A DNA stretch of 64,000 nucleotides from Halobacteriovorax marinus. Lineage in GTDB: Bacteria > Bdellovibrionota > Bacteriovoracia > Bacteriovoracales > Bacteriovoracaceae. The DNA lies in contig MAAO01000002.1 in the NCBI GenBank assembly GCA_002163155.1, positions 248,001 through 312,000 of the forward strand, read 5' to 3'. Below are positions 55,240-61,497 of the stretch, in pieces. Numbering within the stretch: position 1 is the stretch's first letter; every line of letters begins with the position of its first letter. Made by a program: the position numbers and the translations under genes. The notes below the pieces were generated by a model that was not told the origin of the DNA, searched no databases, and saw only the letters and a program-made list of their open reading frames with translations.

Positions 55240-55336
55240 CTTTATACTCGGTTTTCTTAGAGGAACAACATTTTAGTCTTTTAAAATTTCAAAAATTTGA
55301 GACAATAGGGGCTCTTATTTAGGAGTCTCTAGTTTT

Positions 55337-56449
55337 ATGAAAATGTGGTCAACTTACAGAAAAGATATAATTCTCGAAAAGTTACAAATTATTTGTGACA
55401 AGAAGGAAGATGTTACTATTTGGCAAAATAGAGCAGAAGAAAAAATAAAATTTCACGGAAGAATTGTAGAGGTTAACCCCTCAAATACTATTCTCGAACT
55501 AGACTCATCTTATAAGAAAGCAGAGTATCCTCTGACTAAAGATCTAACAGTCTTTGTCCACTATGCAAAAGGTGATGCTCTCTTTAAAAAAGAAGCCTTT
55601 AAAACTGAGGGGCTAAAACTCATCTTTAAAACTCCTGTAGAATTAATGATGAAAGAGAGACGAGTTATTGAAAGATTTACTTTTAAGTATCAAGATTTCA
55701 AAAATGTTTCTTTTAAGACGGCAGGTGCAGCCAATGATCAAAAAAATGTTCTGCATAGATCTTGTATCTTAAAAGATCTCTCTGTAGAAGGTCTAGGCCT
55801 GGTCATTCATGAAGAAGAAATGCTTTCGTTGAGTGTTGGAGATAGTGTTTACATTACTGCAATCACAGATCAAAAAATTGAGTCAGGTCACTTGGGAGAG
55901 ATTCGCTACATCACTCCTTATAACGTCTCTGTTGAACAAGACTCTAATCTTTTTAAAATTGGAATAAAATTTACTGCAGCTCTTGATAGTGTCACCTACA
56001 GATCAATTAGCTCAGTAGTAGAAAAAAAACAGACTAAAATGAAAGGCATCAATGTTTCAACTTTTAACGGTTTAACAGAACTTGATCAAGAGAAAATTCT
56101 TAGAAAAATCTCTGAAGATAATGTCCCTCTTGCAAATAATATTAAAGAACAAATCGAAGTTATAGATCGCTTACGATATCTAACAACCGGTATGAAACAA
56201 AAGTTTCTCTTAGAAGTTAATTTAGACCTCTTAGCTGCGGCACTTAGAATCGCATCTAAAGAACTCATTTTCGATCTTATGACTGAAGTGACGGAGACGA
56301 TGAGAGAAGAGTTTCTCTATAAGTTAGATCAGGCCAAGCCACCCTCTGCTATTAATAAGGCGCAAGATGAAATTGTGAAATATATGAGAGATAAAGAGAG
56401 AGCAGGTGAGCTAGTTTTAGATCCTGTTGCCTTTGATACCTACGTTTAA
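55337..56449 (+). CDS. PilZ-FliG fusion protein (c-di-GMP receptor joined to motor rotor domains)
   Basis: A 370-residue protein. Residues 1-95 are beta-rich with a YcgR/PilZN-like start. A PilZ domain follows with the c-di-GMP motifs RVIER (R109-x3-R113) and DLSVEG (D147, S149, G152). From about residue 240 the sequence switches to FliG middle and C-terminal helices: VPLANNIKEQIEVIDRLRYL matches the FliG P.LA..I...MF.FED...L block; DLLAAALRIASKEL matches the .LL.ALKGA block; and KAQDEIVKYMRDKERAGELVLDP matches VE.AQKEIV.I.R.L...GEI-. The chain even ends in DTYV, as E. coli FliG does. YcgR normally reaches FliG as a separate protein; here both are one chain. No other flagellar gene is in the window. 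Confidence 0.75.
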   Translation: MKMWSTYRKDIILEKLQIICDKKEDVTIWQNRAEEKIKFHGRIVEVNPSNTILELDSSYKKAEYPLTKDLTVFVHYAKGDALFKKEAFKTEGLKLIFKTPVELMMKERRVIERFTFKYQDFKNVSFKTAGAANDQKNVLHRSCILKDLSVEGLGLVIHEEEMLSLSVGDSVYITAITDQKIESGHLGEIRYITPYNVSVEQDSNLFKIGIKFTAALDSVTYRSISSVVEKKQTKMKGINVSTFNGLTELDQEKILRKISEDNVPLANNIKEQIEVIDRLRYLTTGMKQKFLLEVNLDLLAAALRIASKELIFDLMTEVTETMREEFLYKLDQAKPPSAINKAQDEIVKYMRDKERAGELVLDPVAFDTYV

Positions 56450-60888: not shown

Positions 60889-61497
60889 ATGAAATTTATA
60901 AACATATTTAATCCTACTACTCAGCGAGAGTTGCTCGAGGCCATAGGACTTATAAAATCTCCCATTACTCTATGGCAATCTCTTGAGCTTAAAAAGAAAG
61001 TGATGAAGATTTGTATGATGAAAGTAAATCGCTACCAACAGCAAATTGAGTTCACACCAAAGGAAGATAAGTATATTTTTTCAAGTCAGCTTCCTGTTTA
61101 TTTCTACACTAGACACAGAAATTGTATTTTTAAGGCCAATATTATTTTTAACTCTGAATTTAAAGTCATTGCTAAGTGGCCGGAAAATTTTATGATTGAA
61201 AACGGTAGAGAACACGAACGAATTCATCCTAGTAAGAGAAGAGAAGTCTTCTTTTCCTTGCGCGTGAATAATGCTTTCTTTAAAGAATTTTCCAAACCTG
61301 TTATTGATGAGTCTAAGAGAGGTATTTCCATTCGTATTCCCTGCAGTGAAGTTCAATTCTATGATGAATTGGCGGTTGTGAAAGTGAAACTTAGAGGAGA
61401 GATCCGAGATGGAATGATCAATTACATTGTCCCGCTTGAGGGCAAGGGACAGCGGGGATTTTTTCGAATAGGTATAGTCTTTAATAAAATGACCTAG
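60889..61497 (+). CDS. PilZ-like domain protein
   Basis: A 202-residue cytoplasmic protein. The C-terminal half resembles a PilZ domain: basic residues RIHPSKRR (R111, R117, R118) precede the fold, the strand FFSLRV, D140-E-S142-K-R-G145 for the D-x-S-x-x-G motif, and a closing FFRIGIVF strand, as in canonical PilZ. The R-x3-R motif is stretched to R-x5-R, so c-di-GMP binding is uncertain. CAGGAGGG before the ATG is a strong ribosome site. The N-terminal 90 residues resemble a YcgR-type leader. Confidence 0.65.
   Translation: MKFINIFNPTTQRELLEAIGLIKSPITLWQSLELKKKVMKICMMKVNRYQQQIEFTPKEDKYIFSSQLPVYFYTRHRNCIFKANIIFNSEFKVIAKWPENFMIENGREHERIHPSKRREVFFSLRVNNAFFKEFSKPVIDESKRGISIRIPCSEVQFYDELAVVKVKLRGEIRDGMINYIVPLEGKGQRGFFRIGIVFNKMT

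Follow-up and report, generated by a model that had tools for sequence, protein, structure and literature searches.

A YcgR-type c-di-GMP receptor joined to a FliG C-terminal domain in Halobacteriovorax marinus and its relatives

The closest described systems are the flagellar brake or clutch proteins YcgR (E. coli and Salmonella) and MotI/DgrA (B. subtilis), in which a PilZN domain is followed by a PilZ domain with RxxxR and D/NxSxxG motifs; these proteins have no further domain beyond the PilZ helix, and FliG or MotA is for them a separate binding partner. YcgR with c-di-GMP contacts MotA and FliG (PMC12713396, PMC10140304), and F117 of E. coli YcgR is required for MotA binding (PMC10140304); the site of YcgR action at the motor is disputed, and may be the stator, the rotor or both (PMC12713396). 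Here we describe a protein of Halobacteriovorax marinus that has the receptor fold and the same motifs as YcgR and MotI/DgrA, but which continues beyond the PilZ helix with the C-terminal domain of FliG (FliG_C). In the YcgR-GAZ proteins of Leptospirales a YcgR-type receptor has similarly gained a domain in one lineage, although there it is a GAF-like domain inserted in PilZ rather than FliG_C at the C-terminus (PMC11800159). We found no PilZ-FliG fusion described in the openly accessible literature, in agreement with the initial annotation, which knew of no protein with this architecture.

The gene is a single unbroken ORF encoding 370 aa in a 64,000 bp stretch of contig MAAO01000002.1 (the whole stretch analysed, referred to here as the window; Table 1), and the AGGAG upstream of it is common to most of the genus. 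The same full-length frame is uninterrupted in 29 genomes. Structure matches are to YcgR-N, the YcgR PilZ domain and FliG in that order, and the chain is therefore read as PilZN-PilZ-FliG_C, a YcgR-type receptor with FliG_C at its C-terminus. Both c-di-GMP motifs lie exactly where they had been placed initially, and PilZ is present within the first 230 residues as proposed, although this segment contains two domains, PilZN and PilZ, rather than one. A hairpin covering the ribosome site is present in the window but is not conserved across the genus and was set aside. No c-di-GMP riboswitch or other known RNA was found in the window, and a phage origin of the gene was rejected as there are no PHROGs matches.

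Table 1. Positions of the fusion gene and its features in the window
Feature	Position	Strand	Remarks
Likely ribosome-binding site AGGAG	55321..55325	+	11 nt upstream of the fusion ORF
PilZN-PilZ-FliG_C fusion gene (370 aa), including the stop codon	55337..56449	+	Full-length relatives in 29 genomes
PilZN (YcgR-N-like), residues 1-100	55337..55636	+	YcgR-N fold match
PilZ domain, residues 104-215	55646..55981	+	YcgR PilZ fold match; Pfam PilZ in 12/12 relatives
c-di-GMP motif R109-x3-R113	55661..55675	+	R at both positions, 29/29
c-di-GMP motif D147-x-S149-x-x-G152	55775..55792	+	D/N, S and G in 29/29
C-terminal PilZ helix, residues 218-236, continuing into the FliG_C arm	55988..56044	+	Alignment, model
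FliG_C (ARM_C and C1-6), residues 241-370	56057..56446	+	Pfam and FliG fold match
R304, at the place of torque residue K264 of E. coli FliG	56246..56248	+	R in 29/29
K329, charge-reversed counterpart of torque residue D289	56321..56323	+	K in 24/29 fusions; D in 30/30 canonical FliG

The Pfam FliG_C profile (PF01706) matches residues 257–361 significantly (E 4.1e-13, above the cut-off), whereas neither FliG_N nor FliG_M is matched in Pfam at E values up to 10; the FliG middle domain that had been proposed together with the C-terminal one is thus absent. Residues 216–362 align with positions 180–329 of the 338-position FliG model TIGR00207 (1.2e-7), with a score of 31 bits that is far below the equivalog cut-off of 226.7, and residues 221–361 match FliG in the PDB at 6e-6 (4e-8 with a profile). 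The PilZ profile gives only a sub-cut-off match in the query alone (E 0.01, residues 140–219), although all 12 aligned relatives match both PilZ (best 6e-7) and FliG_C. Of the landmarks noted initially in the C-terminal part, the KAQ block is conserved, while the DTYV end is present but specific to the query, and only its last V is conserved among the fusions.

An AlphaFold2 model built on 12 sequences has a mean pLDDT of 75.9 and a pTM of 0.40, and does not define the relative arrangement of the domains. Residues 1–108 of the model match YcgR-N (Z 14.4, 2.1 Å, 102 residues), residues 107–239 match the PilZ domain of YcgR in complex with c-di-GMP (Z 11.2, 2.5 Å), the model as a whole matches complete YcgR (Z 14.5), and residues 274–363 match FliG (Z 11.3–11.4, 1.7–1.8 Å). 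When the C-terminal 157 residues are modelled alone they match 14 FliG entries with Z 9.5–11.5, so that the part initially assigned to FliG does not have an unrelated fold; the next match is a FliG middle domain (Z 5.7). Helix 218–236 aligns with the FliG helix preceding the GG hinge. What is common to the fusion and FliG is FliG_C with ARM_C and C1-6, and the fusion lacks FliG_N, FliG_M, the MFVF hinge and most of the torque charges of FliG; it is classed as a YcgR-type effector and not as a FliG.

In the receptor half, R109, R113, S149 and G152 are invariant among the 29 fusion sequences and position 147 is D in 28 and N in one, such that every one has the RxxxR and D/NxSxxG of YcgR-type PilZ receptors. 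The MotA-binding F117 of YcgR is not kept: position 112, its equivalent as set through the RxxxR motif, is E, K, Q, D, P, R, S or L and never F, a criterion that refers to the MotA contact of E. coli YcgR and is not a mark of the wider receptor family. Mean identity to the query is higher in the FliG_C arm than in the receptor (57% vs 37%; 29 fusions), as expected for a part held by a partner. In genome G082 a PilZN-PilZ paralogue lacking FliG_C (L131:6718-7434, minus strand) directly adjoins the fusion (L131:7546-8679, minus strand). A 202 aa protein 4 kb downstream of the fusion (window 60889-61497, plus strand) has faint similarity to the PilZN half (E 0.196) and no notable Pfam match, and is possibly a divergent PilZ-type protein. 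Elsewhere in the source genome a YcgR-like match to the receptor half (L003; G000:C1:656296-656997, plus strand) crosses three stop codons and is possibly a decayed paralogue.

Within the family Bacteriovoracaceae/Halobacteriovoraceae, 29 of the 129 genomes encode a full-length fusion, one copy in each; among the 369 phylum genomes that were searched, none lay outside this family. A profile scan across 84,980 species, each represented by a single genome, used only peptide patterns of this fusion family and identified 11 loci, all in Bacteriovorax (including Bacteriovorax sp. DB6_IX), Halobacteriovorax or relatives; searching genome contigs with the single protein as query gave no match. Canonical FliG is present in all 29 fusion genomes. 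The neighbours of the fusion in the genus encode a START protein, a response regulator, an Hpt-like protein, an S9 peptidase and a trypsin-like protein; these vary among genera, and no flagellar genes were found in the neighbourhoods of the fusion or of the stand-alone FliG_C genes described below. Five relatives in two genera have neither FliG nor FliM and also lack any FliG_C protein, while retaining 3–5 PilZ proteins; three of the five have weak, sub-cut-off FliF-like matches. Taken together, the FliG_C proteins are more likely to be flagellar in function on account of this co-loss, which says little about the fusion itself because most flagellate relatives also lack it. An exception is genome G137 (85% complete), in which FliF, FliM and canonical FliG were not detected but two FliG_C proteins are kept.

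Besides canonical FliG (~346 aa), most flagellate genomes of the family encode two FliG_C proteins that stand alone (~141–150 aa), and the fusion, where present, is then a fourth FliG_C. Type A of the stand-alone proteins (e.g. L038:9799-10224, plus strand) is encoded near tatC- and hldD-like genes, and type B (e.g. L119:8028-8465, minus strand) adjoins a gene for a conserved coiled-coil protein of ~140 aa and is near ppx/gppA-like and cyclic-nucleotide-binding-like genes (all names assigned by eye from sequence). Type A has FliG_C ancestry in common with the fusion but has no receptor half. In a tree of only 143 columns, with bootstrap not fully settled, all fusion domains and one long-branched stand-alone protein form one clade (100/97) nested inside type A, and type A with this clade (98/100) is separate from canonical FliG. 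We conclude from the tree that the FliG_C of the fusion descends from the type A stand-alone family; derivation from canonical FliG was considered and rejected on the same tree.

It is well established that K264, R281, D288, D289 and R297 (E. coli numbering) are torque-face residues of FliG. Canonical FliG of the family has K264, R281, E288, D289 and K297, with all five charges in 30 of 30 sequences. In the fusions the basic charge at 264 is kept in all 29 (as R), 281 is N, T or S (R in four), 288 is variable (E, Y, D or F), 289 is K in 24 with its charge reversed, and 297 is P, S or A. The MFVF hinge is also gone, both M and F being replaced, with E in place of F234 in 25 of 30 rows. The loss of the charges at 281, 289 and 297 and of the hinge indicates that the fusion is no working rotor subunit, and the lost charges would also make it a poor mimic for catching the stator. 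A receptor and a FliG-type module are therefore joined in one chain, as initially claimed, although the term 'rotor module' overstates a segment without FliG_N and FliG_M and with most MotA-facing charges lost, and the residues favour neither of the two roles suggested with it, a rotor subunit acting inside the switch complex and a charge-mimicking decoy of FliG.

Several explanations can be considered. That an assembly error or frameshift has joined two genes might be suspected from the sub-cut-off PilZ match of the query, but the identical full-length open frame in 29 genomes and the structural confirmation of both halves are such that we reject it. A working rotor subunit that stands in for FliG in a portion of the ring, with c-di-GMP sensing inside the switch, would account for ARM_C and for a junction at FliG's own hinge; yet such a subunit would have no FliG_N or FliG_M for holding FliF and FliM, its torque charges and MFVF hinge are lost, and canonical FliG is always alongside, so we regard it as highly improbable. 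Alternatively, the FliG_C arm could act as a decoy, taking over the rotor's part in engaging the MotA stator, as suggested initially. FliG_C is the domain by which FliG contacts MotA, the fold matches FliG bound to MotAB (8ucs), and the basic residue at 264 is invariant; however, the known charge pairing with MotA would break with the loss of R281, D289 (mostly reversed to K) and K297, and a decoy mimicking the torque face is unlikely on these residues.

Less improbable, although still on the unlikely side, is that FliG_C has become a general docking module in the phylum and that the fusion puts some assembly other than the motor under c-di-GMP control, for example an envelope or polar assembly that holds a stand-alone FliG_C protein. 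The many other FliG_C architectures of the phylum (stand-alone, MORN-repeat, coiled-coil or membrane-anchored), the non-flagellar neighbours of the fusion and stand-alone forms, and the loss of rotor-specific residues are all consistent with it, whereas the absence of FliG_C proteins from the five FliG- and FliM-less relatives, in which PilZ proteins remain, argues against it. A bolder and fairly unlikely proposal is that a torque-dead, c-di-GMP-gated FliG_C inserts into or caps the rotor ring, as one of a set of phylum-specific adaptors (stand-alone, MORN-fused, coiled-coil and membrane-anchored FliG_C) that rewire the motors of these predators.

The explanation we prefer, tentatively and at somewhat less than an even chance, is a c-di-GMP-gated adaptor with the logic of YcgR, whose FliG_C-derived arm docks on the motor. 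It is favoured because the receptor folds, the motifs present in 29 of 29 sequences, and FliG_C by both sequence and fold are all in place, and because canonical FliG accompanies the fusion in all 29 genomes, FliG_C proteins are co-lost in the five relatives, and the arm is conserved. Against it are the lack of flagellar neighbours, the position equivalent to F117 that is never F, the loss of the MFVF hinge and three torque positions, and the G137 exception. In such an adaptor c-di-GMP would bind at the RxxxR and DxSxxG motifs and reorient the PilZ domains, and by analogy with YcgR this could shift the last PilZ helix (218–236) and move the FliG_C arm with it. The arm may then dock at the motor, for which the simplest sites are the FliG ring, contacted via ARM_C, or a stand-alone FliG_C there, and would place a torque-incompetent piece beside the stator, such that the motor slows or disengages as c-di-GMP rises. 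The receptor with its intact motifs, the FliG_C fold, its stand-alone descent and the loss of torque charges are shown by the analysis; where the arm docks, in which direction it acts and that the motor is its target are inferred.

A natural receptor-FliG_C chain offers a direct way to ask which YcgR contact at the motor matters. In Bdellovibrio, mutations of the stator turn obligately predatory cells into freely growing ones and also change c-di-GMP (PMC11323537); if the motor receives a c-di-GMP input, that would be relevant to this transition. The fusion also suggests that predatory bacteria use FliG_C more widely as a module of its own, of which we found no description in the openly accessible literature.

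Other FliG_C- and FliM-type proteins occur in the phylum. FliG_C is joined to MORN-type repeats at L137:7234-8019 (minus strand; FliG_C 3.8e-8, MORN_2 1.4e-9) and at L130:6862-7590 (plus strand), where both matches are weaker and under the cut-off. The source genome encodes, in addition to a normal FliM, a further FliM-like protein that is short (211 aa; L139:7030-7665, plus strand, of G000:C6) and covers the FliM middle domain only (E 3e-29). Genome G189 has canonical FliG and three extra FliG-like proteins of 397, 292 and 338 aa (L182, L183 and L184), the genes for which lie within ~60 kb on one contig; one of the three is without FliG_N and one has FliG_C only. Proteins of 553–784 aa with C-terminal FliG_M and FliG_C are present in other families of the phylum (L172:2546-4897, L174:2407-4668 and L177:2207-3865, minus strand; L173:741-2624, plus strand). 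Lastly, a 577 aa protein of genome G154 (L171:2423-4153, the same as L189:7420-9153, minus strand) begins with a signal-like stretch, probably has a membrane segment, and ends in FliG_M and FliG_C; it is encoded ~3–5 kb from MotB-like (L189:12350-13306) and MotA-like (L189:13312-14190) genes, and resembles a rotor-like FliG that is anchored in the membrane and lies next to a stator pair.
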